From the IMG/VR virus record IMGVR_UViG_3300048839_001048, positions 1 to 34,967 of that record: 34,967 nucleotides of DNA. The stretch is one strand, 5' to 3'. The position numbers were made by a program, and so were the translations under genes. Below the pieces are notes generated by a model. That model saw only the letters and a list, made by a program, of their open reading frames with translations, was not told the origin of the DNA and made no database searches. Shown piece by piece: positions 5,021 to 30,068 of the stretch; the stretch's first letter is position 1, and each line of letters begins with the position of its first letter. This DNA comes from a virus.

Positions 5021-5027
5021 CGGGCCG

Positions 5028-5549: not shown

Positions 5550-5587
5550 TGCGGTGTCGCCTTTCGGTGTGGTGAGGGAGTCGTGGG

Positions 5588-6525: not shown

Positions 6526-6875
6526 GCCGTGGCCTGCCAGAGCGTCTGCGGCTGGGCCATCGCCTCGGCCGCCTCCCGGAGTGCCCGGGCAGTGAGGAGC
6601 TGCTCGATCGCCCGACGCCGGAGGCCGCGAGCGCAGGCGGCGACCTCGGCCGCGTCGGTGCCCAGGCGCGTTCCGAAGTCACCGGTGACGACCGGCCAGC
6701 GGGCGAGGCGCAGCTCCTGCGTCGCGGCCTGCACCCGGCGGGTCCCGTTGTGGCCCGGGCCCCACAGCCCATACGCGATGTCGCGCTGGGTGCGCGTGTC
6801 ACCGCACGCCAGGACGGCCAGCAGGTCCTGCGCGTCCTCCGACAGCCCGGCGAGGGACGGTGGGCGGGCGCTCAT
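6522..6875 (-). CDS. Winged-helix-like hypothetical protein
   Basis: The 117-residue protein begins with LSEDAQDLLAVLACGDTRTQRDIAYGLWG. This resembles a winged-helix N-terminus in which the second helix holds 'TQRDIAYGL'. A further helix (RRVQAATQELRLARWPV) and a beta-hairpin-like VVTGDFGTRLGT follow. The C-terminal half is Arg/Ala helical. Small winged-helix proteins of this type are common in actinophage early operons, but this one cannot be tied to a target. Starts and stops overlap neighbours as ATGA. Confidence 0.55.
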   Translation of the reverse strand: MSARPPSLAGLSEDAQDLLAVLACGDTRTQRDIAYGLWGPGHNGTRRVQAATQELRLARWPVVTGDFGTRLGTDAAEVAACARGLRRRAIEQLLTARALREAAEAMAQPQTLWQATA

Positions 6876-7456
6876 GGCTTGCCGTCCGGTGTGTCGTCGA
6901 CCGCGGTGATGTGCGCGCCCTGGTGGCCGGCCTCCCCTTCGCAGCCCGGCCAGGGGCAGGACTCGGGGTCACTTTCCGCGTCCGTCTCGTCGACGATGTC
7001 AGCCAGGTCGAAGCTCTCTTGGCCCTCGACCTGCGGGGCCGAGGGGATCGTCAGCTGGCCGCAGACGTGCGTGCGGGCCTTGGCCTTGGCCTTCACCCGG
7101 AGCTCGCCGCCGGCATCGTCGACGCGCAGCTCGGGCTCGATCGTCACGAGGATGGGACCCGCGATCTTGCACCGCGGGCAGACGGCCCAGACGGTGATCG
7201 TCGCGTGGGTGATGACCTCGGCCGCATGGTCCGACACCGGCGGGAGCGGCTCGCTCGTGAGTCCGCTGAGCAGGCTCGACCAGGCAGCGTGCGTGACGAC
7301 GGCGACGCCGTCCATCGGCCCGCCTACGACGTCCACCTCGGCCTCGAGGAGGCCGTCCCGCAGGCGATCCTCGAGGCCCCGCCGGAACTGGCTCCGGCTC
7401 TCCCAATGCGTGTCGCTCTCGGGGATCGTGATGACGGGTGCGTTGTCGGTGGTCAC
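6872..7456 (-). CDS. Hypothetical protein with cysteine knuckles
   Basis: The 194-residue product starts at a GTG at 7456 overlapping the RecT-like stop. The middle (about residues 75-135) is beta-rich with VWAVCPRCKIAG and a distant HVCGQLTIP, which could form one zinc site. The C-terminal 40 residues are acidic with CPWPGCEGEAGHQGAHI, a CxxxxC..H..H arrangement that could form a second small zinc site. The position directly after the annealing protein suggests an accessory recombination factor, but no family is recognised. Confidence 0.5.
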   Translation of the reverse strand: MTTDNAPVITIPESDTHWESRSQFRRGLEDRLRDGLLEAEVDVVGGPMDGVAVVTHAAWSSLLSGLTSEPLPPVSDHAAEVITHATITVWAVCPRCKIAGPILVTIEPELRVDDAGGELRVKAKAKARTHVCGQLTIPSAPQVEGQESFDLADIVDETDAESDPESCPWPGCEGEAGHQGAHITAVDDTPDGKP

Positions 7457-8334
7457 GGTGCGGGCCTCCAGTCCAGGTTGAGTGCGTCCGCGAGCTGACC
7501 GCGCTCGGCGTCGGTCATGGCCTTGACGACGGCGGTGACATCGGTCGGCGCCGGGACGGGCTTCCCGAGCGACCCGATCGCGACCGCGATCTCGCCCTTG
7601 GTCTTCCCGGCCTGCACCGCGAGCGCCCCGAGGGCCGCAGCCGAAAGGCCGGACGCAGGGGTGGTGGCCGGGGCAGCCTGGGCTTGCGGCTCCGTCGGCA
7701 GGGGCGGCTCTTCGGCGGGAGCCTCGACGAACGTGCCTTCGACCTCGGCTGCGTCGGTCGTCGTGTCGGGGCTCGGGTCGGACGCGGGGTCGAGGGCCGC
7801 AGCACGTTCGGCGACCCGCTCGGCGAGCGTCTTCCGGGCCGGCGGCTCTTCGGCCGGCGGGATGTCCTCGACCTCTTCCTCGGTCGGGAAGCCGAGCCCC
7901 ACGAGCGAGAGCGTCAGCCGGCGCTTCGCCTTCGTCTCGGCCTTCATCATCGCGTTGGCGAGGGCCTCGCCGGCGAGGCCGCGAACCGACACGGCGCCCG
8001 TCGCCGCATCCTCGCGTCCGTCCGGGGTCCTGCCGTAGGCCGTGACGACCAGGAGATCGCCGACCTGCTCCTTGTCAAGGCCGGTGATGGTGACCTTCGC
8101 GCCGCGTCGCAGCTGGTCGGCGGCGTCGCGCTTCGCGTACAGCGTGAGCTTCCCGTTGAGGGTGATGAACTCGAACGGGCGAGTGAGCGGGTTGAGTCCG
8201 AGCGACCGGCAGAGGGCCGTGTAGTAGGCCATCTTCTCGGGCTCGGTCAGCTTCGCCAGGTCGCCCTTCACGACGACCTGCGCGGCGATCTCCGCGTTCC
8301 GGTCCTCGGCCGGGATGACGGCGGTCTCGGTCAC
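7453..8334 (-). CDS. RecT-like single-strand annealing protein
   Basis: The 293-residue protein contains, at residues 44-77, the conserved segment LGLNPLTRPFEFITLNG followed by KLTLYAKRDAADQLRR. This is characteristic of a large phage family related to RecT-type single-strand annealing proteins. A second conserved region (about 115-150) has AVSVRGLAGEALANAMMKAETKAKRRL, also typical. The C-terminal 140 residues are Pro/Ala/Glu-rich and probably disordered, ending in a short helical module. The gene directly follows the YqaJ-type exonuclease with a GTGA overlap, the usual exonuclease-annealase pairing. The GTG start at 8334 is supported by this overlap. The assignment to the RecT superfamily rests on family memory and context, not on a profile search. 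Confidence 0.75.
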   Translation of the reverse strand: MTETAVIPAEDRNAEIAAQVVVKGDLAKLTEPEKMAYYTALCRSLGLNPLTRPFEFITLNGKLTLYAKRDAADQLRRGAKVTITGLDKEQVGDLLVVTAYGRTPDGREDAATGAVSVRGLAGEALANAMMKAETKAKRRLTLSLVGLGFPTEEEVEDIPPAEEPPARKTLAERVAERAAALDPASDPSPDTTTDAAEVEGTFVEAPAEEPPLPTEPQAQAAPATTPASGLSAAALGALAVQAGKTKGEIAVAIGSLGKPVPAPTDVTAVVKAMTDAERGQLADALNLDWRPAP

Positions 8335-9284
8335 GATGCGTCCTCCTTCTCGGTCGTGACGCGGAAGTAGCGAGCGCCCTCCCGGACCGTCACGAACGGC
8401 CCGACGACCGCGGCGCGGTCCGTCTCGGGCATCGGTGCCAACAGGTGCTCGGCGAGGGCCTTCCAGTCCGTGGCCTCGCCGTCCTTCGATCGCTTCCAGC
8501 TGACCCGGAAGCCGTCGCCGCGCAGCAGCGCGACCTCGCCCATGCGGCTCTTGATCGACGCCTCAAGCCGTTCCTCGGCCTCGGCCAGGTCCTTCCGCTG
8601 GGAGCGGAGGGTCACGAGCTCCCGGACCCAACCCGCGAGCTCGGCGTCGGCCGTCATCTCGGCCCCGTTGTCACGCGGGTAGCGGCGCCGGACGCTCTCG
8701 TTGGACTCTTCGAACGGGCCTCCGGCGGCCAGGCGTCGGCGGAAGTCGGCGGCGATCTCGATCAGTCCGCGCTCGGTCGCTTCGTCGCGCTCGACCGTGA
8801 ACGTGCGAATGTCGTCGTCGCCGACGGTGAGCGTCACGACCTCGACGGCGGGCACGTCCCCCACCAGGGCCTGCCACCTTGCCTGAGCTTCGACGTCCTG
8901 CGGCAGCCCGTCCGCGAAGCGCGACCGGGAGCCGGTCCACTTGATCTCGAGGAGGGTCTTCCGGGCCTGCGCGTCCGGGCTGGCGCCGGCCCACTCGATC
9001 TCGGCGCTGCGCCAGAGGCCGCGGACCCGGCGGACCTTCACCCCGCGCGACTCCGCGTACAGGTCGGCGATCAGGTCCTCGAGGGCCGACCCGACGCGCA
9101 TCCGTGTGTTCGACTCGACGGGCTCGCGCAGGCCGAGCTTCTCTTCGGCGAGGTCAGCCTCGGAGCGGTACGGCGAGAGGCCCAGCAGGACCGGGATGTC
9201 GGTCGCCGTGATGAGTTCGCGCCGGGCAGCGTGCCACTCGGGCGAGCCTTGCAGGACGCGGATGCGGATGGGCGCGGCCATCAT
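8331..9284 (-). CDS. YqaJ-type viral recombinase exonuclease
   Basis: The 317-residue protein shows the YqaJ/lambda-exonuclease PD-(D/E)XK motifs. These are VLQGSPEWHAARRELITATD (10-29), LLGLSPYRSEADLAEEKLG, GSALEDLIADLY (E69), ASPDA (D104), LLEIKWTG (E113, K115) and DVEAQARWQAL (Q134). The C-terminal half (about 220-317) is a helical region with a coiled-coil stretch. The enzyme should resect double-stranded DNA ends to feed the annealing protein encoded immediately downstream. The start is ATGATG at 9284/9281, overlapping the stop of the zinc-binding gene. Confidence 0.85.
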   Translation of the reverse strand: MMAAPIRIRVLQGSPEWHAARRELITATDIPVLLGLSPYRSEADLAEEKLGLREPVESNTRMRVGSALEDLIADLYAESRGVKVRRVRGLWRSAEIEWAGASPDAQARKTLLEIKWTGSRSRFADGLPQDVEAQARWQALVGDVPAVEVVTLTVGDDDIRTFTVERDEATERGLIEIAADFRRRLAAGGPFEESNESVRRRYPRDNGAEMTADAELAGWVRELVTLRSQRKDLAEAEERLEASIKSRMGEVALLRGDGFRVSWKRSKDGEATDWKALAEHLLAPMPETDRAAVVGPFVTVREGARYFRVTTEKEDAS

Positions 9285-9549: not shown

Positions 9550-10167
9550 TCAGGCCGAGGCCGCAGCCGGGGCGATGCGGTCGTTGAGCAGCGCGGCCAG
9601 GTCGATCGCCTGACGCGGTCGGGGGAACGCGGGCCCGGCGGGGTGGTCGAGCCGTCCGCCGCCGAGCCCGAACACGACGCGGTATCCGTCATCGCGGACC
9701 ACGACGTAGGCGCGTGCCGGGCCGTACTCGTCGACGGGGGTGGCGATCCCCTCAGCGATGGCCGCCAGCGTTGCCGGGGAGGCCGGACGGCCTACCGTGG
9801 CGGCTTGCGAGGGGTCATCCCGGTGTCCCAGTCCGCGGGGAGTTTCGTGACATGCCCGCGAGACGGCCTTGCGGCAGGCATCCGAGCACGTCGTCCGGGG
9901 TCGGCCGGTGCGCGACGGGAACATGGCCGTTCCGCACACGGCGCAGCGATGTGGCCCGGAGGGGATGGGGTCCGGGCCACCCCTGCCGACGCGGGCCCCA
10001 TCCCGATCGTCGACAGGGGGAACGGCAAGGGAGATAGCCGGGGCGGTCACCCCGGTCTGCCGCGGGCCGGTGGAGCCCTGTGCTCCTCCCAGCAGTTGAC
10101 GGCCGGCGGCAGACCGGGCGAGACGGCCCTCTGTTCGGGCGGTGGCGGCGCGCTGGCGGGGGGTCAC
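9550..10167 (-). CDS. Hypothetical protein with treble-clef-like zinc finger
   Basis: The 205-residue product is read from a GTG at 10167 that overlaps the upstream stop (GTGA); a later GTG around residue 43 is possible because the first 40 residues are low-complexity. The recognisable part is a finger: HRCAVCGTAMFPS then TCSDACRKAVSR (CxxC...CxxxC), similar in layout to the finger at the N-terminus of the terminase at 33260-34924. The C-terminal 90 residues contain ARAYVVVRDDGYRVVFGLGG and a helix with AIDLAALLNDRI. The function is unknown. Confidence 0.55.
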   Translation of the reverse strand: MTPRQRAATARTEGRLARSAAGRQLLGGAQGSTGPRQTGVTAPAISLAVPPVDDRDGARVGRGGPDPIPSGPHRCAVCGTAMFPSRTGRPRTTCSDACRKAVSRACHETPRGLGHRDDPSQAATVGRPASPATLAAIAEGIATPVDEYGPARAYVVVRDDGYRVVFGLGGGRLDHPAGPAFPRPRQAIDLAALLNDRIAPAAASA

Positions 10168-10382
10168 GGGTGCAGGACCTCGCCCGTCGTGTCGCGGGCG
10201 GTGAGGCGCCGGCGCCACTCGGGGACGAACGGCTCCGGGGCCTCGGTCACGTTGGCGCCCATCGCCCGCCAGACGGCGATGCACTCCGGGCACAGGCGCG
10301 CCTCGTTCGTGCCCACCCGGACGACGACGAGGGCGGTGTCGGTGCAGCGGGTGGTCCGACCACGGCACGTCACGCCGCTCAT
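10164..10382 (-). CDS. Small hypothetical protein with zinc knuckles
   Basis: The 72-residue protein contains TCRGRTTRC near the N-terminus and LCPECIAVW in the middle, which together could bind one zinc. The ATG at 10382 overlaps the previous stop (TGATG); a TTG one codon upstream is the alternative. The C-terminal half (FVPEWRRRLTARDTTGEVLHP) is basic. No family is recognised. Confidence 0.5.
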   Translation of the reverse strand: MSGVTCRGRTTRCTDTALVVVRVGTNEARLCPECIAVWRAMGANVTEAPEPFVPEWRRRLTARDTTGEVLHP

Positions 10383-10633
10383 CAAGCCGCCCGCCCGTGG
10401 CCCGGCTCGAGGATCCCGTCGGCGCAGGTGGCGTCGACGCGGCCGGCCATGCGCTTCGCGACACGATCGGCCACGCGGAGCAGCTGGTCGAGCGCCTTGG
10501 CGTCCGACATCTGGCCCCAGTCGCCGGACGCGATGGCGGCCTGCCAGAGCGGGACGCCCTGGCGCCGGCGCAGGTCGCGCACGCCGACTTGGAACTCGAC
10601 GGCGGCTTCGTCCAGCGCGATCGGGCGGGGCAT
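10382..10633 (-). CDS. Small helical hypothetical protein
   Basis: This encodes 83 residues from ATG 10633 (TGATG overlap; a GTG at 10636 would add one residue). The N-terminal half (AAVEFQVGVRDLRRRQGVPLWQ) looks helical and basic. The second half has a helix with AKALDQLLRVADRVAKRMAG. It may be a DNA-binding or adaptor protein. It is second in the operon behind the HTH gene, which is compatible with a regulatory role, but this is inference. Confidence 0.5.
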   Translation of the reverse strand: MPRPIALDEAAVEFQVGVRDLRRRQGVPLWQAAIASGDWGQMSDAKALDQLLRVADRVAKRMAGRVDATCADGILEPGHGRAA

Positions 10634-10863
10634 CACGCGACCCTCGCCCGCTGCCCAGGGAACCGCGCCTCGATGTCGAGCCGGCGCATCCAGTGGTGGA
10701 TCGTCGACTCCGAGACGCCGAGCGCGGCGCCGACCTGGGCCATCGTCTGGCCGCGGGTCACGTAGCGATCGCGGAGCTCCGCCTCGAGCGACCGGCCCAG
10801 GCGCGCCTCGACGCGCCGCATCGGGCCGGTGAGACGAGGATCGTTGGTGCGGGCGTCATCCAT
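10633..10863 (-). CDS. Homeodomain-like helix-turn-helix protein, first gene of operon
   Basis: The 76-residue protein consists largely of one helix-turn-helix unit: AELRDRYVTRGQTMAQVGAALGVSESTIHHWMRRLDI (about 28-65), where TMAQVGAALG is the first helix of the motif and ESTIHHWMRRL the recognition helix. It is the promoter-proximal gene of the replication operon and faces the only long intergenic region of the window, so it could regulate its own operon or the divergent plus-strand gene. The ATG at 10863 has no clear Shine-Dalgarno (CTACCGGC upstream), suggesting a weak or short leader. Confidence 0.7.
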   Translation of the reverse strand: MDDARTNDPRLTGPMRRVEARLGRSLEAELRDRYVTRGQTMAQVGAALGVSESTIHHWMRRLDIEARFPGQRARVA

Positions 10864-11116
10864 GCCGGTAGACTGGCATAAATGACGGAAGAGGTCAAGA
10901 GGGTAAAATCACGAGCAGCCCAGCGGCGACCCGTCAGAACATGGTGTGGCTCCCGGCACGGCCGACGCATAGCGTCCCGCTTGCCATGGACGATCAGCGA
11001 CGCGACTACGCTGCCAGCCTTGCGGGCGTGATCATGGAGCGCCGAGCGGACGCGCCAACTAGGATGGCACGGCGAGACGCCCCAGGACCTTCGTGCGGTG
11101 ACAGGAGGCAACGGCA
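10864..11116. other. Divergent intergenic control region
   Basis: This is the longest non-coding stretch (253 bp), lying between the minus-strand replication operon and the plus-strand membrane-protein gene. 10873-10912 is richer in A/T than the surroundings and on the minus strand carries TTGACC (10898-10893), but no -10 at standard spacing is convincing. On the plus strand TAGGAT at 11060-11065 has no matching -35. A Shine-Dalgarno AGGAGG lies at 11103-11108 for the gene at 11117. Promoters for both directions must lie here or be read through; I cannot place them. Plus-strand frames of 49 and 59 codons here look non-coding. Confidence 0.5.
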
Positions 11117-18928: not shown

Positions 18929-19398
18929 ACCTCCAGGACGGCGCGCAGGATCTCGGTGTCGGTCGCGAACTCGTCGACCTGGTCGGCGGGAGGCAGGGCC
19001 CCCGCCTGGTCGTATGAACGGAGCAGCTCGTACAGGCCATCGGTCTCCGCGAGCAGGCGGTTCATGATCTCTGGCACGTCGTCGCCGGCGGCCTCGAGGT
19101 CATCGCCGAGCGTCGCGAACCGGAGGTCCATCTGTTCGATCCACCGCCGCGACGCGGCGCGGGGCAGTATCGGTAGGTCATACGTTGACCCGCCCAGGAC
19201 GACCCGTACCCGACCGGCGAGGATGTCCGTCGCGCTTCGCGCGGGCAGCTCGGCCGGCCAGAAGCGGGCCATCCGGGCGTTGAGCCCGGCGACGTGCCGC
19301 CGGCGCTCGGCAATGGCGAAGGCGCGCGCCGCGCCGACGCCGAGACCCACGACGAGTCCCAGCGCCAGCGCGAACGCATAGCCCACGATGTCCTGCAT
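18805..19398 (-). CDS. Tail assembly chaperone G-like protein with membrane anchor
   Basis: The 197-residue protein carries a chaperone-like core from about residue 60: GRVRVVLGGSTYDLPILPR followed by helices, and a Ser/Thr/Glu-rich tail after the frameshift point. The N-terminus is odd. Residues 5-30 (VGYAFALALGLVVGLGVGAARAF) form a clear hydrophobic segment followed by ERRR, unlike known gpG-type chaperones. The ATG at 19398 overlaps the major tail protein stop (TGATG), supporting this start, but an internal start near residue 43 (ATG) would remove the segment. Codon third positions are G/C-rich throughout, so the extension is coding. Confidence 0.75.
   Translation of the reverse strand: MQDIVGYAFALALGLVVGLGVGAARAFAIAERRRHVAGLNARMARFWPAELPARSATDILAGRVRVVLGGSTYDLPILPRAASRRWIEQMDLRFATLGDDLEAAGDDVPEIMNRLLAETDGLYELLRSYDQAGALPPADQVDEFATDTEILRAVLEVWRAANPLAATLAQSTTTSEPSEEPSSSQRPTAGIPSTSRG
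18907..18913 (-). promoter_or_regulatory. -1 ribosomal slippery heptamer C CCT TTA
   Basis: On the minus strand CCCTTTA is in register with the upstream chaperone frame as C CCT TTA, matching the X XXY YYZ pattern. Slippage of both tRNAs by one base (CCT to CCC, TTA to TTT) shifts into the frame of the 18536-18928 extension without meeting a stop. Downstream GC-rich sequence could form a stimulatory structure, which I did not fold. Confidence 0.75.
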
Positions 19399-19922
19399 CA
19401 GGACGCGACGTCGAGGATGCGGATCCGGTGCGGGGAGGCGGTCAGGTCCGCCGGATCCCAGCGGGAGTGGAGTTCGAGCCGCGGTGCCGCCAGCGCATCA
19501 TCGGAGAGCGTGGCCTCCGTGTTCGCCAGGTTGATCGCGCTGTCGACCTCGAACTGGAACTCGCCGCCGCCGAGCCGCTCGATCTGCAGCTCGTAATCGT
19601 GGTAGGCCGTGGTCGGGATGCGCCGGGTGTTGTCCTCATCGATCGTGACCGTGCCGCTGCCGGACGCGGCGCTGCCGGGCCACGCTGCCTCGAGGATCGT
19701 CTCCCCGAACTCCGGCACGCTCATCTCGAGGATGCCCTCGGAGCGCGTGATGTAGTCCGTGCCGAGGAGGGCGCCCTTGACCCCGTTCAGGTCGGGGGTG
19801 AAGAGCTCCCGCTCGATCCGGAACACGTTCGCGTCGGTCGTCGCGCCGACGTCATCGTTGTCGATGTACGCCTCGCCGGCCCCGACGACGAGATTGGTAG
19901 GGGTGTCGGTGGTGACGCTCAA
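19398..19922 (-). CDS. Major tail (tube) protein
   Basis: The 174-residue protein lies directly before the chaperone pair and shows a beta-rich composition of tube proteins (NLVVGAGEAYIDNDDVG, GILEMSVPEFGETILEAAWPG, YHDYELQIERLGGGEFQFEVD). It starts at an unusual TTG (19922), supported by a perfect AGGAGG 8 nt upstream (19931-19936), the strongest ribosome-binding site in the tail module, as expected for an abundant protein. Assignment as tube protein rests on size, position and the chaperone/tape-measure context. Confidence 0.75.
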   Translation of the reverse strand: MSVTTDTPTNLVVGAGEAYIDNDDVGATTDANVFRIERELFTPDLNGVKGALLGTDYITRSEGILEMSVPEFGETILEAAWPGSAASGSGTVTIDEDNTRRIPTTAYHDYELQIERLGGGEFQFEVDSAINLANTEATLSDDALAAPRLELHSRWDPADLTASPHRIRILDVAS

Positions 19923-20517: not shown

Positions 20518-20961
20518 CTATGAGCCGGCGGCCACCTCCGAGGCCGTGGCGATCACCCGGAGCGTCCCGAGGACGACGGGCTGGTTCGTGTCGGGGTCGG
20601 AGCTCTGCTCGCCCCCGGAGGTCGACGTGCGGTAGATGCCGAGGCCGTTGGACTCGCGCACTCGCGGGCCGGCGCCATGGAATGCCTTGACGAAGGCGCC
20701 CCACACGGCCCACGCGTTCTGGTGGGTCGTCCCGTAGCACCGGACCCCGTACTCGGCGAACGTCACCGGGACGGTGGGCATGACCGGGACGGTCAGGGCG
20801 GTCACGACGACGAACGCCTGCCAGCCCCCCGGGCCATCCGCATCGCCGGGCGCCGGCTCGACGCCGCGGACGCGGACGCCGACCAGGCTGGCGAGGTCCG
20901 CGTCGTTGCGCGCCTCGACGATGATCGAGCCGAGGGGATCGAGCTGGGGATCGGTCAGCAT
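20518..20961 (-). CDS. Tail terminator-like protein
   Basis: The 147-residue protein begins MLTDPQLDPLGSIIVEARNDADLASLVGVRVRG. It then has a central VPVTFAEYGVRCYGTTHQNAWAVWGAFVKAFHG segment, similar to the strand-helix arrangement of siphophage tail terminators. These cap the tail tube before head joining. It lies at the head of the tail module, as expected. GTGATG at 20964/20961 overlaps the aminotransferase stop, so either GTG or ATG may start it. The assignment is by size, motif impression and position. Confidence 0.55.
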   Translation of the reverse strand: MLTDPQLDPLGSIIVEARNDADLASLVGVRVRGVEPAPGDADGPGGWQAFVVVTALTVPVMPTVPVTFAEYGVRCYGTTHQNAWAVWGAFVKAFHGAGPRVRESNGLGIYRTSTSGGEQSSDPDTNQPVVLGTLRVIATASEVAAGS

Positions 20962-21569
20962 CACGTCGCACTCCGGAAGGCCGGGAGCCCGCGCAGGTCC
21001 GGGTAGGCGAGGTCCAGGTCCGGCGCGTCGTCCGGGTGGGCCTCGAGCAGCTGCAGCCCGCGCGCGGCCTGCTCCGGGGTCAGGTAGGCATTGAAGCCGT
21101 GCTCGGTGATCCCCTGGTCGCGGAGGAAGGGCACGGACCCGTCGCGGCCGTCGAAGCGCATCCGGCGCAGCCAGGCCGCCGCGTCGACGTCATCGGTCAG
21201 CACCATGCCGCCGCGCCCGATCTTGATGTGCTTGCGGGCATGGAACGAGACGCAGTGCAGCCCCCCGGCGTACATGCCGCGGCGCATCCGGAGCGCGCCG
21301 TCCACGATCTCGAGGGGCCGCAGCAGGTAGGCCCCGGTCCACACGACGTCTTCGAACCGCACCCGGCCACCGGCGTGGATGATCGCGTTCGGCACCGAGA
21401 TGTAGGTCCGCGCCGGGATCGTCACCTCGATGCCGGCGGCGCCCGACCGGAGGCATGAGAGGAAGAGGGCGGTCGTGCAGGAGTCGACCGCTACGCCGTA
21501 GCGCGACCCAGCGAACTCGGCCACCGCCTCCTCGAACATCTCGACGACCCGAAACGCGCGGCTCGTCAT
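20961..21569 (-). CDS. Compact DegT/DnrJ/EryC1-type aminotransferase
   Basis: The 202-residue protein keeps the core of PLP-dependent sugar aminotransferases. It has VAVDSCTTALFLSCLRSGA (27-45), VTIPARTYISVPNAIIHAGG (49-68), a PLP-ring Asp in LEIVDGALR (D90), and SFHARKHIKIGRGG with the Schiff-base Lys candidate K113. It also has HGFNAYLTPEQAARGLQLLE (157-176). Usual members have 360-400 residues with the lysine near 180-190, so this one lacks an internal block before D90 and the C-terminal domain. It would transaminate a keto-sugar nucleotide; activity of the short form is unproven. It is the last gene of the glycan cassette. Confidence 0.8.
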   Translation of the reverse strand: MTSRAFRVVEMFEEAVAEFAGSRYGVAVDSCTTALFLSCLRSGAAGIEVTIPARTYISVPNAIIHAGGRVRFEDVVWTGAYLLRPLEIVDGALRMRRGMYAGGLHCVSFHARKHIKIGRGGMVLTDDVDAAAWLRRMRFDGRDGSVPFLRDQGITEHGFNAYLTPEQAARGLQLLEAHPDDAPDLDLAYPDLRGLPAFRSAT

Positions 21570-22042
21570 CGGTCGATCCTCCTGGCCGGCACGCCCACCC
21601 AGGTCTCGCCGGCCGGGATGCTCTTCGTCACGACGGCGCCGGCCCCGACCACCGCCCCGTCGCCGATGACTACACCGGCAACCACGATGGCGCCGGCCCC
21701 GATCGAGCACCCCCGCCGGAGGAGCGTCGGCGACACGGTCCAGTCGCCGGCCATCGCCAGCCCCCCATCCGGGCGGGTGGCGACTGGATGACGGTCATTC
21801 GTGAGGATCGCGCCCGGACCGATGAACACCTCGTCCTCGATCGTGACGCCGGCGAACACCTGGGCCAGGTTCTCGAGCTTGACCCGGTCGCCGATGACGA
21901 CGCCCACGTCGACGTAGGCGCCTCGCCCGATGACGCAGTCGGACCCGATCCGGCAGCCCGCGCGAAGGTGGGCGCCGTGCCACACCGCGGTGCGGCCGCC
22001 CACGATGACCCCCGGCTCGACGTGCGCCTGCGGGTGGATCAT
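21566..22042 (-). CDS. WbpD-like left-handed beta-helix sugar N-acetyltransferase
   Basis: The 158-residue protein is built of hexapeptide repeats forming a left-handed beta-helix (VIVGGRTAVWHGAHLRAG, IGSDCVIGRGAYV, IGDRVKLENLAQVFAGV). It then has IEDEVFIGPGAILTNDRHP (68-86), IGAGAIVVAGVVIGDGAVVG and WVGVPARRID. The WHGAHL, VKLENLAQV and FIGPGAILTND pieces are characteristic of WbpD/WlbB-type acetyltransferases, which acetylate the 3-amino group of UDP-2-acetamido-3-amino sugars. It lies between the epimerase and aminotransferase genes with ATGA overlaps, which fits aminosugar synthesis. Confidence 0.8.
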   Translation of the reverse strand: MIHPQAHVEPGVIVGGRTAVWHGAHLRAGCRIGSDCVIGRGAYVDVGVVIGDRVKLENLAQVFAGVTIEDEVFIGPGAILTNDRHPVATRPDGGLAMAGDWTVSPTLLRRGCSIGAGAIVVAGVVIGDGAVVGAGAVVTKSIPAGETWVGVPARRIDR

Positions 22043-22908
22043 GCCGCCACCTTCAACGCCCGTGCCTGGGCCATGTCGAGGAGGCCCGCCGCGAAGCTGT
22101 ACTCGGCGGTGAACCCGAGCATCCGCGACGCCTTCGACGTGTCGTACACGAAGCGAGCGGCGTCGACCTCGCGGCCACGCTCGACGGCGACCTCGCCGTC
22201 GTACCCGAAGGCATCGCACACGAGCCGCCCCGCCTGCGTCGCGGTGAGCTCCTCGCCGGTCCCGATGTTGTACACGTGCCGCCAGCAGTCCCACGAGGCG
22301 GACACGGCCAGCAGGTTCGCCCGGGCGACGTCCCGGATGTAGGTGAAGTCGTTCGACTGCTGCCCGCCGTAGAGGACGGGTGCCATGCCCCGGTTGATCC
22401 GGTCGAGGAACCCGCCGACCAGGCCATGGCCCCGCTTCTCGGGGCCGTAGAGGTGGGCGTAGCGCAGGATGATCCACGGGCTGGCGGACTCCTGGACGAG
22501 CAGCTCGCCGAGATACTTCGTGCAGCCGTAGAGCGAGTTCCCCGAGGCGCGGAAGGTCTCGCGGATCGGCGGGTCCTCGTCGATCGGCATGTACACCGAT
22601 CCGGTGGACGCGTAGACCAGCGGCACCCGCAGGTCGGAGGCGATGCGGGCGACGACGCGCGTGCCCTCGACGTTCGTGGACAGCGCCACCAGCGGGGCCG
22701 CGTCGGCGTCGGCGAACCGCGCGATCGCCGCCAGGTGCAGGATCCGGTCGGGCTCGCGCTCCTCCACCACCCGGCGGAGCGCGCCCTCGTCCCGGACGTC
22801 CAGGCGATCCATGATGTCGAACCCGACGACCTCATGGCCGGCGTTCTCGAACACGGCGCGCGTCGCCGCTCCGACGAACCCCCTGTCGCCCGTGATCAGG
22901 ACCCGCAT
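22039..22908 (-). CDS. NAD-dependent sugar epimerase/dehydratase
   Basis: The 289-residue protein is an extended short-chain dehydrogenase. It has a Rossmann glycine motif ITGDRGFVG (5-13), DVRDEGAL for the Asp-containing nucleotide loop, and ILHLAAIARF. The catalytic S101-T102 lie in VYASTGSVY, with Y127xxxK131 in LYGCTKYLGE and WIILRYAHLYGP. FTYIRDVARANLLA and HVYNIGTGE follow. Substrate is probably a UDP-, GDP- or dTDP-hexose, but epimerase, dehydratase and reductase cannot be told apart by eye. It is part of the cassette, starting at ATG 22908 (TGATG overlap). Confidence 0.85.
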   Translation of the reverse strand: MRVLITGDRGFVGAATRAVFENAGHEVVGFDIMDRLDVRDEGALRRVVEEREPDRILHLAAIARFADADAAPLVALSTNVEGTRVVARIASDLRVPLVYASTGSVYMPIDEDPPIRETFRASGNSLYGCTKYLGELLVQESASPWIILRYAHLYGPEKRGHGLVGGFLDRINRGMAPVLYGGQQSNDFTYIRDVARANLLAVSASWDCWRHVYNIGTGEELTATQAGRLVCDAFGYDGEVAVERGREVDAARFVYDTSKASRMLGFTAEYSFAAGLLDMAQARALKVAA

Positions 22909-23933
22909 CAGGCTGCCTCCTCGATCTCGATCGCCGCCCAGTCGAGCAGGACCTCGGCGGCTCGTCGCGCGGCTCCATCGCGGTGCGCGTAGACGAGCTC
23001 GAGCGCCCGCTCCCGCTCGGCTGCCACCTGGGGCGGGTCCCCGAGGGCCCGCTCGACGGCAGCCTCGAGGTCGGCCGCATGTCCGACGTTGATCCCGACG
23101 CCGGCCGCATCCCAGAAGCGGAGCCCATGGCTGACGTTGGGCCGATAGCCCCGCCCGACGGTGCGTCCGACCGGATCGTTCAGCACCACCACCGGCCGGC
23201 CGGTCGCGGCGAACTCGAACCCCGCGCTCGTGTTGTCGAACACGAGCAGGTCGGCTCGCCGGCAGACGTCCTCGAAGTCCTCGACGAGCTCGATCCCGAG
23301 CCTCCTGTATTCGCGCCGAAGGTCCGGCGGGCCGTCGAGCGCACGCGGGTGGGCGTGTCCGATGACCGCCCAGCGCGCCGCCAGGTCGGGCAGCGCCGCA
23401 CGGAATGCGTAGTACGCGGTGCGGGTCTCCTGGACGAGCCTGCAGTCCCAGTGGAACGTCACCGCGACGACCGGCCCGGGGCCCGGCTCGCGCGCGGGGA
23501 GCAGGTCCAGCTTCGGGCAGCCGACGACATCCACCCTGGCCCGGGGATAGGCCGCCCGCCACATCGCGGCGGAGTACTCGTTCGGCATCAGGAAGAGGCC
23601 GACGTCGCCGCGGTCGCGGCCGCCGGCATAGGACGAGTGGGTCGCGCCCTTGCGATCCCCTGGGTAGCTCTGACCGGCGCCGTGCTCGATGTAGGCGATC
23701 CGGGTGTACCCGTCCCGTCGCATCCTCTTCGTGTCGCCATAGGAAGCGACCAGGACCGGGCGCGAGGGGTCGGGCGCGACGTTCGTGGTCGGGGTGATGC
23801 CGCGCGCCCGGGCGCGCTCCTCCATCGGGCGATACACGTGGAACCGCCCCCGCGCCTCGGTCGGCAGCGCGTGCCACACGGCCGCCAGGTGGTCGACGAA
23901 CTGGACCTCGTGGGCGTACATGTCGATCGTCAT
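22908..23933 (-). CDS. TagF-like glycosyl/glycerophosphotransferase
   Basis: The 341-residue protein has features of the CDP-glycerol glycerophosphotransferase/GT-B superfamily. These are YIEHGAGQSYPG (81-92), VVGCPKLDLL (137-145), GPVVAVTFHWDC, WAVIGHAHPRALDG (188-201) and LLVFDNTSAGFEFAATGRPV (229-248), the last like the acidic/Ser-rich 'DYSS..f.....pv' motif. It would transfer a polyol phosphate or sugar from an activated donor. It directly follows a HxGH nucleotidyltransferase, the combination seen in teichoic-acid (TagD/TagF) pathways. The product and acceptor are unknown. The ATG at 23933 overlaps the preceding stop. Confidence 0.65.
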   Translation of the reverse strand: MTIDMYAHEVQFVDHLAAVWHALPTEARGRFHVYRPMEERARARGITPTTNVAPDPSRPVLVASYGDTKRMRRDGYTRIAYIEHGAGQSYPGDRKGATHSSYAGGRDRGDVGLFLMPNEYSAAMWRAAYPRARVDVVGCPKLDLLPAREPGPGPVVAVTFHWDCRLVQETRTAYYAFRAALPDLAARWAVIGHAHPRALDGPPDLRREYRRLGIELVEDFEDVCRRADLLVFDNTSAGFEFAATGRPVVVLNDPVGRTVGRGYRPNVSHGLRFWDAAGVGINVGHAADLEAAVERALGDPPQVAAERERALELVYAHRDGAARRAAEVLLDWAAIEIEEAA

Positions 23934-24334
23934 GGCCGGCACCGCCGAGCGATCTCCGTCGAGCTGATGCCGGCCGGGCGCACCGGCACGTAGGCGATGG
24001 TGATCCCGAGTGCGTCGAGGCGGTCCTGCGTGACGTCGATCTGGGCCAGGTAGTCCCGTCGCGCCCAGTCGGTCCCGATGGTGATGACGTCCGGGCGCAG
24101 CGCTTCGATGACCTCCCGACCGGGCCCATCGTTCAGCACGACGGGGTAGCCGAGTGCCGCCACGATGGCGAGCCGCTCGTCCTCCGTGAACGGTGGCCGA
24201 CTCCCTTTGTACCGCTCCACGAAGGCATCGGAGTTGATCGCGACGGTCAGCTGTCCGAACGCCTCCGACCGGCGCAGGAAGGCGGCGTGGCCCATGTGGG
24301 GTACGCCGAACGTGCCGAGAGTCAGGACGCGCAT
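23930..24334 (-). CDS. HxGH nucleotidyltransferase, TagD/RfaE-like
   Basis: The 134-residue protein is a complete single-domain cytidylyltransferase-like enzyme. TLGTFGVPHMGHAAFLRRS (5-23) contains the HxGH signature (13-16), and AINSDAFVERYKGSRPPFTE carries the RYKG motif. EALRPDVITIGTDWA and AGISSTEI (121-128) replace the usual RTxGISTT. Glycerol-3-phosphate cytidylyltransferases (TagD) and RfaE adenylyltransferases have this length and motif set. It probably activates a polyol- or heptose-phosphate for the next gene's transferase. The start overlaps the upstream gene by 13 nt. Confidence 0.85.
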   Translation of the reverse strand: MRVLTLGTFGVPHMGHAAFLRRSEAFGQLTVAINSDAFVERYKGSRPPFTEDERLAIVAALGYPVVLNDGPGREVIEALRPDVITIGTDWARRDYLAQIDVTQDRLDALGITIAYVPVRPAGISSTEIARRCRP

Positions 24335-25206
24335 CCGACCGCCTCCCGGTCCAGCGCAGCTGCGTAGATCCGTTCCCATCGCGCGACGACGAGCCGCGCA
24401 TCGTGGACCTCGTTGACGCAGGCCCAGCCGCGCGCGGCGACCTCGGCGCGCAGGTTCGCGTCGGCGAGGATCTCGACGAGGCGCTCGCGAAGGTCGTCCG
24501 GGGTCGCGCGCAGGTAGGGCAGATAGCCGATCGCCTTGACGATCTGGTCCTCGATCGCCTGATGCGACACGCCGGACACCGTCGGGATGCCCATGCCCCA
24601 CGCCTCGAGCGAGGTGTTCCCATACCCGAAGGCGAACGAGTCGAACACGACGTCGGCCCGGGCCTTCGCCGCCAGCGAGCTCGCCCAGGGCAGGCCCTCG
24701 AGGAGCTCGTGCGGCAGGCCGGCCGCCGCGGCGAGGAACACGTCCGTCTGTTTCATGTGGCGCTTCGTTGGCGCCTGGACGACGAACGGGACGCCCGGGC
24801 TGTAGTGAGCTTGGCGGATGGCCTGGAGCTCGTCGATCAGCACCGGGTTCGGCACCCAGGGGATGCCCTCTACGGCGAGGTCGTGCGTCGAGCCGACCAC
24901 CGGCACGCCGGTCCGGTGACCCGGCCCGTCGACCCAGTATCGGGTGCCGTGGTGGTGCAACACGCGCGGACGATCCTCGGCCGCGGGAACGTGGGCATCG
25001 ATCATGTGGACCACGTCTGCCCTGGCGATGAGGTCCGCGACGAGCGCGGGGTCGTCGCGCCACACGATGTCGGCCGGGTAGCTGAGCCAGTTGGGCTGGC
25101 GCTTGACGAAGCGCACCTCGTGGGCGGTGTATCTGTCGAATGCCCGCTTGAGCGTGATCCCGACCCCGGCCGGATCACCATAGGGGCTGACGATCACGAT
25201 CCTCAT
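24322..25206 (-). CDS. GT-B glycosyltransferase (group 1-like)
   Basis: The 294-residue protein starts MRIVIVSPYGDPAGVG, a typical N-terminal Rossmann strand and glycine loop of GT-B enzymes. It has VHMIDAHVP and HHHGTRYWVDG in the acceptor-side domain. The donor side carries FAFGYGNTSLEAWGMGIPTV (191-210), which resembles the E(x7)E-type nucleotide-sugar motif region of group 1 transferases. The usual length is 350-400, so it is somewhat short. Donor and acceptor are unknown. The gene is coupled by ATGA overlap to its neighbours in the cassette. Confidence 0.75.
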   Translation of the reverse strand: MRIVIVSPYGDPAGVGITLKRAFDRYTAHEVRFVKRQPNWLSYPADIVWRDDPALVADLIARADVVHMIDAHVPAAEDRPRVLHHHGTRYWVDGPGHRTGVPVVGSTHDLAVEGIPWVPNPVLIDELQAIRQAHYSPGVPFVVQAPTKRHMKQTDVFLAAAAGLPHELLEGLPWASSLAAKARADVVFDSFAFGYGNTSLEAWGMGIPTVSGVSHQAIEDQIVKAIGYLPYLRATPDDLRERLVEILADANLRAEVAARGWACVNEVHDARLVVARWERIYAAALDREAVGCAS

Positions 25207-25904
25207 GGCGTCGCCCCCATCACGGCTCGGGCGCGGTCGACCAGGTCAGCCGGATAGTGGGCGGCAAGCTGGTCCCAGGGATCGGTCCGTTCGGCGACTC
25301 CCCATCGGGTCCATAGCCGGTCGTACTGGGTGATGAACGGCGGGTGACGGAACCCGATGTACTGGTACGGGTGCAGGTCGCGCCATTCCCAGCGCGGCGG
25401 CCGGCGCAGGCCGCGGACGGTGTTGTGATCGGTATTGCGGTTGATCTCGTCGGGCGCTGGCCGGAACCTGACCGGCTCCATCAGCGAACGGTGGAACATG
25501 TGCGGGCCGGCGCCGACCTGGCCGACCCGGAGCTCCGCGATCCGCCCGGGCTCCACCGGGGCGTACATATGCGATGTCCGGGTCTGGCGGATCGATGGCA
25601 GCGGGAAGAGGTAGGCAGGATCGATCCACGAGTCGCTGCCGATCGGCACGATCCATTCGGCACCGTGGCGGCCGGCGTACTCCTGGCCGTCGTTGAATCT
25701 TCGCCCGAGCCACTCGTTGTCACGCTCGACGGTGTCGAAGCCGAGGCCGCGCGCGATGTCGAGGTTCTCGTCATCGGCGACGACGACCTGGCGCGCCTCC
25801 AGCCCGACCTTCGCCAGCTCGTCAATCACCCGACGGCGCTGCTCAAGGCAGATGGCGGTCAGCGTGAACCGTCCCCAGGCCGGGGTCACGAACCACACGC
25901 TCAT
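25203..25904 (-). CDS. GT-A-like glycosyltransferase
   Basis: The 233-residue protein has an N-terminal strand-helix like family 2 transferases (SVWFVTPAWGRFTLTAICLE), then VVVADDENLDIARGLG and EWIVPIGSDSWIDPAYLF (83-100). The SDSW takes the place of the metal-binding DxD. The C-terminal third has many aromatic residues (RWEWRDLHPYQYIGF). It probably transfers a sugar from a nucleotide donor. Divergence from well-known family 2 members makes donor prediction unsafe. The stop overlaps the next start in the cassette. Confidence 0.7.
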   Translation of the reverse strand: MSVWFVTPAWGRFTLTAICLEQRRRVIDELAKVGLEARQVVVADDENLDIARGLGFDTVERDNEWLGRRFNDGQEYAGRHGAEWIVPIGSDSWIDPAYLFPLPSIRQTRTSHMYAPVEPGRIAELRVGQVGAGPHMFHRSLMEPVRFRPAPDEINRNTDHNTVRGLRRPPRWEWRDLHPYQYIGFRHPPFITQYDRLWTRWGVAERTDPWDQLAAHYPADLVDRARAVMGATP

Positions 25905-26554
25905 GCCGCCACCGCCTCGATCAGGTCCCAGTCGACGTCGAACGTCGCCCGGACGCCAGCCGTGATCGGATCACGGGCCATGCGGAACGGCGTGAGCGTG
26001 TCGGGGTGCCGGACCCAGAGGAACGCCGGCCGGTCGTCGACGATCCGGACCGGGGCGAGCTCCCACGTCCGGCGGTGCTGCCGCATCCGGATGTGAGTCC
26101 GGTCGCCGGCCGGGGCCCAGAGCGAGGCCCATGCGTTCTTCCGGTTGACGACCGGCACCTGGCGCAGGCCGTTGACGCGGTAGCCGACCGGAAGCATGAG
26201 CACCGTTCGCTCCGTGAGCGTCGCGGCACAGGCGGTGATCCGGAGGAAGGCGTCCCGGGCGAACGCATCGTCGTCATCGATCCGGGTCGTGAGCACCGGC
26301 TCGGTCCAGTCGATGTATGCCTCGGGCCCGGCGCCCATCATGGGCACGACCGGCTGGCCGGCCGATCGGAACGCGTCGAGCCGTTCCTCGAGCAGGGGGT
26401 CGTCCGGGTGCACGTAGACCAGCCAGGTGAACGGCGTCCCCTGCGCCCGGAGCGAGCGCGCCGTGACGCCGCGGGCGATCGCGATGCGCCGCCGGTTCGC
26501 ATCCAGCGGGTACGCCGGCCCGCGCGAGGATGCGGTCAGGATGTAGTGCCTCAT
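25901..26554 (-). CDS. Putative rhamnosyltransferase-type glycosyltransferase
   Basis: The 217-residue protein has TWLVYVHPDDPLLEERLDAF and TTRIDDDDAFARDAFLRI (89-106). The last is the signature of the 'putative rhamnosyl transferase' family, where the RxDxDD motif binds the metal-nucleotide. ERTVLMLPVGYRVNG and KNAWASLW follow, as usual in the family. Start ATG 26554 and stop overlap both neighbours (ATGA). The rhamnose specificity is the family label, not something shown by sequence here. Confidence 0.75.
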   Translation of the reverse strand: MRHYILTASSRGPAYPLDANRRRIAIARGVTARSLRAQGTPFTWLVYVHPDDPLLEERLDAFRSAGQPVVPMMGAGPEAYIDWTEPVLTTRIDDDDAFARDAFLRITACAATLTERTVLMLPVGYRVNGLRQVPVVNRKNAWASLWAPAGDRTHIRMRQHRRTWELAPVRIVDDRPAFLWVRHPDTLTPFRMARDPITAGVRATFDVDWDLIEAVAA

Positions 26555-27363
26555 GCTGCCACCGCCTGGCGCCCGAGCAGCGACCGGAGGCCGTCCACGC
26601 GCTCGGCGAGCTCGGCCGCCAGCGCGGGTGGCACGAGACCGTCGCGGAAGGTCCTGACCCGGGCCGCCTTCGCCGGGCGGTTCGCCCGGACCGGCGGGGA
26701 GGCGGCGATGTCCTCGCAGCGCGCGACGATCGCCCGGTTGCGCCGGCGCATCTCCGTCCGGGCCGGGGACCGGATGTCCGTCGCCGGGTCCGTGCAGAGC
26801 GACCCAGCGCGGCCGAGCCGGTTGTACGTCGGGACCGTCGAGGCGCCGACCGGCGCGACGATCCGCATGACCTTGAGGGTGAGCGAGTCCTGGCCCAGCC
26901 GCTCGCCTGGATTGTGGGCTCCGATCTCGCGATAGCGCTCGGTGCGATAGATCCCGACCTCGTATGCCTTGCGGACGACGGTTCCCCGGCATGCCGCGTG
27001 CTCGGGATCCCCCGGGCAGAAGTGCTCGTTGTGGTAGCGGAGCGCGCCGCACGCGACGTCGGCCTCGTGGGCGAGCAGGCTCTCGATGTGATCCGGGTCC
27101 ACCCAGTCATCCGCGGCCACCGGCGCGTACCACTCGAACGGGCTCGCCCAGATCGCGACGTCCTGGGCGAAGTACGCGCCTCGGTTCGTCGGGTAGCTGT
27201 AGACGACCAGGCGGTCGTCGCGGATGCCGTCCAGCGGTGGTGCCTCGCCGTCGCCGATGACGGCACAGACGAGGTCGCGGTGCGTCTGGGCCAGGACCGA
27301 ACGCACGGCCCGCTCGATCCACGGGCCGCACCGCCAGTACGGGATCGCGACGAGCACGGTCAC
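26551..27363 (-). CDS. Family 2 glycosyltransferase, first gene of glycan cassette
   Basis: The 270-residue protein starts TVLVAIPYWRCGPWIERAVRSVL, the classical GT2 N-terminus, followed by VIGDGE, PTNRGAYFAQDVAI and APVAADDWVDPDH (80-92). The ADDW acts as the DxD-type metal site. A C-terminal helical tail is Arg-rich. It starts at a GTG (27363) that overlaps the stop of the head-closure gene as GTGA, so the cassette is translationally coupled to virion assembly genes. Confidence 0.8.
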   Translation of the reverse strand: MTVLVAIPYWRCGPWIERAVRSVLAQTHRDLVCAVIGDGEAPPLDGIRDDRLVVYSYPTNRGAYFAQDVAIWASPFEWYAPVAADDWVDPDHIESLLAHEADVACGALRYHNEHFCPGDPEHAACRGTVVRKAYEVGIYRTERYREIGAHNPGERLGQDSLTLKVMRIVAPVGASTVPTYNRLGRAGSLCTDPATDIRSPARTEMRRRNRAIVARCEDIAASPPVRANRPAKAARVRTFRDGLVPPALAAELAERVDGLRSLLGRQAVAA

Positions 27364-27728
27364 GACGCCTCCAGCGGGAGGGCCGCGGACGTGATCCGCC
27401 GGCAGTCGACCTCGAGGTGATCGCTCGCGGTGCCGAACTCGAACCGCCGGATCCCGACGATGTCATAGCGGACCCCGTCGTCCGGCTCGAACCGGACGAA
27501 CGCCGCCGTCGAGTGGTCGCCGAGCGGCAGGAAGATGACGTGGTCGCCGATCTCGGCGCCGGCCTGGTGGGCGAGCGCGATCTCCTGGACCTTCTTCGGC
27601 TGCACGAGCCCGTCCACGAGCTCGACGATCGGCGTCCCGGCGACCGGGTGCCCGTACTCGTCGAGGGTGGAATCGGTCGTCGGGCTGACGATCGCCAGCT
27701 CGTGCACGAAGCGGTCGGCGATGGGCAT
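27360..27728 (-). CDS. Head closure / head-tail joining protein
   Basis: The 122-residue beta-rich protein (VSPTTDSTLDEYGHPVAGTP, VQEIALAHQAGAEIGDHVIF, VRYDIVGIRRFEFGTASDH) resembles the SPP1 gp16/HK97-type head-closure family. In these a 'DxyG' N-terminus, a loop and a C-terminal strand pair form a ring plug below the connector. It follows the connector gene by TGATG overlap. The next gene downstream is the first glycan-cassette gene. Confidence 0.65.
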   Translation of the reverse strand: MPIADRFVHELAIVSPTTDSTLDEYGHPVAGTPIVELVDGLVQPKKVQEIALAHQAGAEIGDHVIFLPLGDHSTAAFVRFEPDDGVRYDIVGIRRFEFGTASDHLEVDCRRITSAALPLEAS

Positions 27729-28568: not shown

Positions 28569-30068
28569 TTAGACGCCGCTGGTGACGACGCCGACGGTGA
28601 GGACACGGAAGGCGCTGTCGACCAGCACCTCAGCGCTGTTCCGCCAGTAGGCGAACAGGCCGCGCTCCCCGGTCGGGTTGCCGTCGCCGTTGACCATGTG
28701 GGGGATGAGCTCGATCGTGAGGCCGATCTTGTCGACGATCACGAACTGGCCGAAGTCGCCGAAGATGGCGATCCGGTTCGTCGCGGTCGCGAAGTCGGAC
28801 TCCATCGCCGAGCTGTTGTGGCGCGGGTAGCCGAGCAGCGCCTGGGGCTCGCCGGCCACGAGCGGCCGGTAGTTCGGGTTCACGCCGGCCACCCGATCGA
28901 GGCGCTCGGCCTCGGTGTAGACCGCGCGGTGGGCGAGCCAGCGGGCTCGCGGCTCCCAGCGGTCCGGGAGGCGCGTCGTGATCCGGCCGAGGTCCTCCGT
29001 GTCGAAGCCGTCCCCGGTCGTGCCGACGTTGTACGTCGACGCGATGCCGTACAGGACGCCCTCCGGCTCGTTGGTCCCGGTGCCGTTGACGAACTTGTCC
29101 GCCTCGAGGGTGTCCTTCGCGTCCTGGAGCAGACGCGCCATCTCGCCCTGGAGTCGCGGCCAGTCGCCGTCCGACTCGATGCTGAACTTGATCAGCGCCT
29201 TCGCCTTGCGGACCGTGATGTCCGGCCGGGCGATCGTCGGCGCGCCGTCGGTGACCGCGACGGCCTCGGTGCCGTAGCTCGCCGTGACCCCGGCCGACGT
29301 GATGGCCTGCCAGGTGTTGCCCACGTTGAGCTGCTCGATCCGGGCGATCTGCCGGAGCGGGTTCACCGCGCCGTCGGACGTCAGGATGATGGTCGGGTCG
29401 AGGGTCGCCGGGACCGCGTAGCCGCCGGTCGTGGTCGTGCCGACGGTGGCGATCGCGGCACGCTCGCCCTCGCCGAGCGGGAGGCCGGCGAGCGTCTTCG
29501 CGAACGCCCGCTGGTACTCCGGCGACGTCGTCGCCAGGAAGTGCCGCGCGAAGGCCCCTGGGTCGAAGCCGTTCTCGATCGGCCTCTCGGGGACCGGCAT
29601 CGCGAGCAGCTTGTGGATCCGCGCGACCGACTTCTCGGGCGTCGCGTTCTCGTGGGGGTAGAACGCCTGCTCGGCCGCCTTGTGAGCGCCGTCGATCATC
29701 AGGGAGCGCATCGCCCCCTCGGACGACGTGCGACCGCGGTACTCGGAGAGGTCGAACAGGTTCTCGGGGAGCCGGGTGACGGCCCGGGGACCGCGCGGGG
29801 CGAGGTCCGTGCCGGAGCGCTCGACGCGGCGCTCGTCGGTGGCGAGGTCGGCGATCCACTTGGCGCGGGCTTCGAACTCGGCCTTGCGCTCGTCGGCGGC
29901 GAGCTTGAGCTCGCGGAGGCCCGCGAACTCGTCCTGGGCGGACTCGTCGAAGGTTCGGCCCTGCCACTCCGCCTCGAGCTCGGTGGAGCGCGTCTTGATC
30001 TGGGCAAGGAACTGGTCGATCTCGGCGACGTTCTTCGTCGCCTCGAGGTCTGCGAGCGAGAGCTTCAT
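28569..30068 (-). CDS. HK97-fold major capsid protein
   Basis: The 499-residue protein has an N-terminal helical, coiled-coil delta/scaffold region (about 1-95: IDQFLAQIKTRSTELEAEWQ, DERKAEFEARAKWIADLATDE) and an HK97-fold shell domain from about 190 on. The shell domain includes TTTTGGYAVPATLDPTIILT, NPLRQIARIEQLNVGNTW, KALIKFSIESDGDWPRLQ, ADKFVNGTGTNEPEGVLYG and IAIFGDFGQFVIVDKIGL. It ends in a strand with VDSAFRVLTVG. The scaffold part is presumably removed by the protease encoded just upstream. ATG 30068 overlaps that gene's stop (TGATG). It is followed by a strong hairpin. Confidence 0.9.
   Translation of the reverse strand: MKLSLADLEATKNVAEIDQFLAQIKTRSTELEAEWQGRTFDESAQDEFAGLRELKLAADERKAEFEARAKWIADLATDERRVERSGTDLAPRGPRAVTRLPENLFDLSEYRGRTSSEGAMRSLMIDGAHKAAEQAFYPHENATPEKSVARIHKLLAMPVPERPIENGFDPGAFARHFLATTSPEYQRAFAKTLAGLPLGEGERAAIATVGTTTTGGYAVPATLDPTIILTSDGAVNPLRQIARIEQLNVGNTWQAITSAGVTASYGTEAVAVTDGAPTIARPDITVRKAKALIKFSIESDGDWPRLQGEMARLLQDAKDTLEADKFVNGTGTNEPEGVLYGIASTYNVGTTGDGFDTEDLGRITTRLPDRWEPRARWLAHRAVYTEAERLDRVAGVNPNYRPLVAGEPQALLGYPRHNSSAMESDFATATNRIAIFGDFGQFVIVDKIGLTIELIPHMVNGDGNPTGERGLFAYWRNSAEVLVDSAFRVLTVGVVTSGV

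Follow-up and report, generated by a model that had tools for sequence, protein, structure and literature searches.

A sugar-gene cassette among the head and tail genes of an uncultured phage: probable virion glycosylation and a C-terminal serine signature

To our knowledge, glycosylation of virions has been shown only for a few cultured mycobacteriophages and has been considered rare elsewhere. Freeman et al. (2023, Cell Host Microbe) reportedly found that capsid and tail-tube proteins carry O-linked glycans at their C-termini. According to published summaries (PMC12363180, PMC12619734, PMC11600133), the phages Che8, Corndog and Myrna use their own glycosyltransferases (GTs) to modify capsid and tail-tube proteins at their C-termini. 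In Firecracker, a relative of Corndog, the gene order is portal, O-methyltransferase, three GTs, protease and capsid. Here, we describe a nine-gene sugar cassette (gA to gI), located at positions 20961-27363 of the complete IMG/VR virus record IMGVR_UViG_3300048839_001048 (34,967 bases; hereafter the window). We put the probability that this cassette glycosylates virion proteins at roughly 80%; it is the best-supported function because of the recurrent insertion site, the position that the family takes, as a rule, in the morphogenesis operon, the same arrangement and a GT homologous to one in related cassettes in phages documented to glycosylate their particles, and a C-terminal serine signature. 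A preliminary description of the window had already proposed a dedicated virion glycan, but had suggested that the decoration system could be previously undescribed, which is too strong in view of the mycobacteriophage precedents cited above.

The window phage, which we class as a soil-type bacterial virus, has a GC (guanine plus cytosine) content of ~71% and is coded nearly entirely on the minus strand. The gene order on this strand is large terminase, portal, protease, HK97-type major capsid protein (MCP), connector, head closure, the nine sugar genes, tail terminator, major tail (tube) protein (MTP), neck, tape measure and more tail genes. The cassette interval is filled by nine complete minus-strand open reading frames, all of which were also called by a codon model trained only on the other genes of the phage. 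All junctions overlap by 1-13 nucleotides, including both borders with virion genes: head closure and gA overlap at 27360-27363, where the start codon of gA overlaps the head-closure stop, and gI and the tail terminator overlap at 20961-20964. Profile matches and synteny identify the flanks as HK97-type head and tail genes. The description of nine overlapping same-strand genes coupled to virion genes at both ends is thereby borne out.

Related viral records and loci, referred to by L-numbers, share this insertion point (L022, L023-L028, L030, L035 and L041, and the L002 and L012 records). The interval between head closure and tail genes is occupied by cassettes in at least 10 phages, with shuffled gene content. 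In L022, the order is head closure-gA-gB-gD-gE-gG-gD'-gC-gF-tail terminator, and in L023-L028, L030, L035 and L041 the interval from head closure to neck or tail holds other mixtures, usually gE, several GTs and gF. L012 carries gF-gH-gI-tail terminator. In L002 (MCP 76%), head closure, gA, gB, gC, a methyltransferase and a GT lie at one record end and gF, neck and tail terminator at the opposite end; if the genome is circular, the cassette thus occupies the site used in the window. In L008, head closure, neck and tail terminator are contiguous and the cassette lies instead between portal and protease. Because of such alternative sites, the cassette is seen to be a modular island that moves among a few sites, nearly all of them within the morphogenesis operon. 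In L002, the connector gene is separated from head closure by additional genes (L002:12339-14377), one of them for a 430-aa (amino acid) protein of GTGGGV-type repeats. An unrelated glycan cassette directly follows the MCP gene in L005 (11842-17846) and encodes GT4 and GT2 enzymes, methyltransferases including a rhamnosyl-O-methyltransferase-like one, an epimerase and an asparagine-synthase-like protein (PF00733).

The TagF-like enzyme gF is a marker of the cassette family. When aligned gF proteins were used for a pattern search, 118 viral contigs were retrieved, of which 80 were kept; gF was found in 84 loci forming 71 clusters at 80% identity, and the finding is more general than the preliminary description could show. 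Morphogenesis genes, scored within 7 kb, flank gF on both sides in 43/71 clusters, on one side in 23/71, many of which are cut by contig ends, and on neither side in 5/71; where a locus extends 7 kb or more in each direction, 27/32 are flanked on both. Around gF loci, morphogenesis genes were never detected on the opposite strand. Nine gF clusters use the portal-to-protease interval in which the Firecracker cassette resides. Further members of these cassettes are GT7C-type transferases, O-methyltransferases (PF13578, FkbM), and pyruvyltransferase-like and deacetylase-like enzymes. Firecracker gp35 matched the GT7C profile of these relatives with 124 bits and gp33 matched their methyltransferase profile; the window-type gA profile reached only 6 bits. 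The gF subfamily had one match in 84,980 prokaryotic (bacterial and archaeal) genomes, the contig concerned being 4.5 kb long and carrying matches to tail proteins, and was present in only one of 50,697 deposited phage records. Nucleotide comparison of the window with isolated phages gave no match, nor did protein searches of isolated phages with gA, gB and gC.

The second line of evidence is a near-perfect link between phage GT cassettes and a serine at the C-terminus of capsid and tail-tube proteins. C-termini were read on the MCP and MTP of records L006-L098 and L100-L196, and in gF loci nearly all of these proteins have -GS or -AS as their last two residues. A terminal serine was present in 37/37 MCPs and in 39/41 members of MTP families, together 76/78, a count that is uncorrected for shared ancestry and in which the capsid group of the window and L022, a known exception lacking the serine, fell under another profile label. 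Other virion proteins of the same loci (portal, terminase, connector, neck, tail terminator, chaperone, tape measure) end in serine in 13/197 cases, and the background over called genes is 15%. The terminal serine is encoded by several codons, followed by any of the three stops, and the constraint therefore appears to act at the protein level. An artefact of nucleotide overlap (TCGTGA) was ruled out as the cause of the capsid serine, as 0/37 capsid genes overlap a start. Head-closure proteins of gF loci end in serine in 15/19 cases and overlap the next start codon in 13/19, and here the serine may reflect a nucleotide constraint.

A control within one capsid family gave the same picture. A search with a single capsid alignment yielded 80 loci with and without cassettes, of which the 46 records that extend 2 kb or more in either direction were scored, and GTs were detected by our own profiles and Pfam PF00535, PF13692 and PF13524, applied evenly. 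The capsid ended in serine in 17/17 GT-bearing records, compared with 1/29 records without a GT, namely L143 (Fisher p ~1e-11); before three of the 17 had been recognised as GT-bearing, p was 5e-7 for 80% clusters and 0.0015 for 60% clusters. The GT families of 11 of these 17 records had not been used to define the signature, and these records therefore act as blind confirmations. L165, picked for its serine-ending capsid without a known GT, turned out to carry a new cassette (GT, FkbM and exostosin-like) adjoining the MCP gene. Among the isolated phages compared (Firecracker, Che8, Brujita, TM4 and REQ1), MCP and MTP of Che8 end in NKTGS and SDGS, respectively, the capsid and tail-tube proteins of Firecracker in LVGS and KGDS, and those of Brujita in ETAS and EAGS. 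Brujita gp72 and gp73 (L201:33036-34630), annotated as hypothetical, are homologous to the Firecracker GTs gp34 and gp35. The corresponding proteins of TM4 end without serine in APAA and VISV, and no relative of these Firecracker/Brujita enzymes was detected in TM4.

The enzymes encoded by the cassette are listed in Table 1; their substrates are predicted from family membership. The earlier labels GT2, rhamnosyltransferase-type, GT-B, TagF-like and epimerase were supported by Pfam or profile matches, and the enzyme labelled as a WbpD-like acetyltransferase matched the hexapeptide transferase family. Relatives of gA are found in L002 (63%), L022, L006, L051 and L082. In gB, R91 and D93-D96 (TRIDDDD) are invariant in a 12-member alignment, and its profile matched no solved structure. 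The designation of gC as GT-A-like is backed by its weak similarity to gA relatives, seen in one tblastn hit, but by no Pfam match, and a profile comparison with solved structures (PDB) gave nothing credible; its GSDS motif is invariant, and relatives occur in L002 (70%) and L022 (53%). No Pfam family matched gD either. As sole query against viral contigs, gD retrieved none, and its relatives in L022 (two copies), L051 and L086 surfaced only via gF loci. The HxGH nucleotidyltransferase gE was confirmed and could be specified further as glycerol-3-phosphate cytidylyltransferase-like, since its family profile matches 1coz over the full length (E 1.8e-23). It contains HxGH and RPxGxSST motifs with invariant H13, G15, H16, R119 and G122; it also matches ethanolamine-phosphate cytidylyltransferase, and glycerol-3-phosphate is its predicted substrate. 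Matches to the gE hidden Markov model adjoin gF in a dozen loci. The PF04464 match of gF covers the TagF-type C-terminal half, its profile matches Cps3D (E 0.003) and TarL (E 0.027), and its predicted structure (predicted local distance difference test score, pLDDT, 91.8) has a GT-B fold. gG resembles the UDP-glucose 4-epimerase 4zrm (E 2e-26), and gH adjoins gI in L011 and L012. The label DegT-type aminotransferase needs to be narrowed for gI, a 202-aa miniature from which the C-terminal domain and an internal segment of the full two-domain DegT/DnrJ/EryC1/StrS enzyme (~370 aa) are missing. It is perosamine-synthase-like and keeps the pyridoxal phosphate (PLP) lysine K113 and, at the expected site, the aspartate D90, both invariant in five members; a fold search with a model whose loops are of low confidence gave a template modelling score of only ~0.6. 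A family of ~200-aa miniature DegT proteins occurs in L011-L015, in phages of 35% to 73% GC, often beside GTs and near terminase.

Table 1. Genes of the cassette, its flanks and the major structural proteins of the window (E, E-value; aa, amino acids).
Feature	Position	Strand	Evidence
gA: GT2 glycosyltransferase, 270 aa, GTG start	26551..27363	-	PF00535 E 1.8e-7
gB: rhamnosyltransferase-type GT, 217 aa	25901..26554	-	PF11316 E 4.5e-6
gC: probable GT-A-type transferase, 233 aa	25203..25904	-	weak tblastn similarity to gA relatives
gD: GT-B enzyme, C-terminal half GT4-like, 294 aa	24322..25206	-	profile vs PimB 3okc, best E 1.3e-4
gE: glycerol-3-phosphate cytidylyltransferase-like (TagD type), 134 aa	23930..24334	-	PF01467 E 1e-11
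gF: TagF-like GT-B, 337-341 aa, marker of phage-specific cassette family	22908..23933	-	PF04464 24.8 bits (cut-off 22.1)
gG: NAD-dependent nucleotide-sugar epimerase/dehydratase, 289 aa	22039..22908	-	PF01370 E 1.9e-36; YxxxK present
gH: left-handed beta-helix (hexapeptide) acyltransferase, 158 aa	21566..22042	-	PF00132 E 1.2e-23
gI: miniature DegT sugar aminotransferase, 202 aa	20961..21569	-	PF01041 E 3.5e-22, two pieces
Upstream flank: head closure protein	27360..27728	-	ends ...LPLEAS; synteny with L008, L022, L024
Downstream flank: tail terminator	20518..20964	-	relatives L012 (67%), L008 (41%), L002 record (43%); ends AAGS
Major tail (tube) protein, MTP	19398..19922	-	phrog_885; ends ...RILDVAS
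Major capsid protein, MCP	28569..30068	-	phrog_10 E 3.7e-32; ends ...GVVTSGV

The other end of the record (window 463-9281) encodes a Prim-Pol/AAA protein, a YqaJ recombinase, a PD-(D/E)XK nuclease and a weakly lytic-transglycosylase-like (DPBB) protein.

From these families we infer a pathway in which the cassette would make a glycan and attach it to the phage's own virion proteins during particle building. gE would supply cytidine diphosphate (CDP)-glycerol or a similar CDP-polyol, and gG, gI and gH together an N-acylated amino sugar nucleotide. gA, gB, gC and gD could then build a short O-linked oligosaccharide on the C-terminal serine of the tail tube, with head closure or the capsid tail perhaps serving as further acceptors, and gF may add, or cap it with, a glycerol-phosphate-type group. 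The decoration is probably of the glycerol-phosphate type. Enzymes resembling TagD and TagF of wall teichoic acid synthesis might also act on the host surface, and O-antigen-modifying enzymes encoded by phages are known. The cassette would in that case alter cell-wall or capsule glycans, for instance teichoic-acid-like polymers, thereby blocking superinfection or freeing progeny from receptors. We consider this unlikely, although it is the strongest of the alternatives: dozens of diverse phages have the cassette co-linear with virion genes, neither flippase nor polymerase accompanies it, the gF subfamily is nearly absent from the bacterial and archaeal genomes searched, and it is the C-terminal serine of virion proteins that tracks the cassette.

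If virion proteins are glycosylated, the tail tube is the likeliest acceptor in the window phage and the capsid a possible one, because the MTP ends in serine (DVAS, with the terminal serine invariant in 12 relatives) and the MCP in TSGV. Head closure and tail terminator of the window end in LEAS and AAGS, respectively. The MCP relatives without a cassette, L003 and L004, stop earlier and lack the Thr/Ser-containing tail. Several observations weigh against virion glycosylation or the serine rule. The capsid signature is absent from the window itself, whose MCP ends in VTSGV, and from its nearest relatives L022 (VTTGV) and L002 (VTTGI). Capsids of L143 and L110 end in serine and no GT was detected, the L110 stretch having no portal gene and being possibly incomplete; the capsid of Rhodococcus phage REQ1 (L200) ends in KAS, and a limited check of its proteins found no GT. 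Conversely, L005 has a cassette, yet its capsid ends in -VT. In L081, gF (10001-11032) lies beside a DNA methyltransferase and a DnaC-like loader, genes of DNA metabolism, and is the one clear exception to the position rule. A fold search placed the gF model as close to uridine diphosphate (UDP)-N-acetylglucosamine 2-epimerases (Z up to 21.8) as to TagF (Z 20.1), and gI may be inactive for want of a domain.

The serine-free capsid of the window would also fit a glycan carried by a separate fibre or decoration protein, the C-terminal serine then having another role. A collagen-like/Gp10_C fibre gene directly follows the cassette of L008 (13816-15060, between portal and protease), and repeat-rich proteins are encoded near the same site in L002. 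However, such a fibre gene was not noted in other cassettes, and the terminal serine marks capsid and tail-tube proteins specifically and goes with the presence of GTs, which makes a separate carrier improbable.

DNA is often the substrate of phage GTs. Cases are cited in PMC12619734, but hypermodification of phage DNA is very improbable here and was rejected, as the scanned proteins of the window included no product of a pyrimidine-hydroxylase, aGPT-type or thymidylate-synthase-like gene, the cassette lies with head and tail genes, and the enzymes of relatives are linked to Corndog-type virion GTs.

Glycosylation of virion proteins remains the preferred function, and the uncultured relatives together with the terminal serine suggest that sugar-coating of particles is far commoner than isolated phages had shown. 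The C-terminal serine rule is a simple and falsifiable means of predicting from sequence in which phages the particles are glycosylated, and at which site. We tentatively propose, aware that this wider claim may well not hold, that a large uncultured population of mostly high-GC tailed phages attaches a teichoic-acid-like glycerol-phosphate glycan to the serine that ends their capsid and tail-tube proteins, and that terminal -GS/-AS is an acceptor code by which glycosylated virions can be predicted from sequence alone. If true, this would bear on how soil and water phages escape immune, predatory or adsorptive loss, and would open a set of unusual phage-specific transferases.

Compared with the CDP-glycerol/CDP-ribitol teichoic acid enzymes TagD, TagF and TarL, gE shares the HxGH and (R)xxGxSST motifs and the 1coz match, and gF the PF04464 and TarL/Cps3D profile matches. 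Unlike those systems, gF forms a small single-domain phage-specific subfamily, and the window cassette is without teichoic-acid linkage enzymes, flippase or primase genes. The order of gI, gH and gG resembles that of amino-sugar nucleotide modules such as perosamine synthase, WbpE/WbpD and QdtB/QdtC-type pairs, and gI keeps the PLP lysine and the aspartate; it is, however, about half the normal length and lacks the C-terminal domain. Like Che8 and Corndog, the window phage encodes GTs (Pfam or profile matches for gA, gB and gD, no more than weak similarity for gC), and as in Corndog-type phages its cassette lies within the structural operon, here between head closure and tail terminator. In Che8 and Firecracker, -GS/-DS terminates the capsid and tail-tube proteins, and the tail-tube protein of the window likewise ends in serine. 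In contrast to Firecracker, the window cassette is inserted at head closure/tail terminator, its GTs have no detectable homology to Firecracker GTs beyond generic GT2 similarity, and the capsid C-terminus is without serine. The window cassette further differs from the Che8/Corndog type in its nine genes, its own sugar-nucleotide synthesis and its TagD/TagF-like pair. Taken together, it is already known from mycobacteriophages that phage GTs glycosylate the C-termini of capsid and tail-tube proteins, and that Corndog-type phages have a cassette within the structural operon; the CDP-glycerol (TagD/TagF-like) chemistry, the included synthesis genes and the large uncultured distribution look new.

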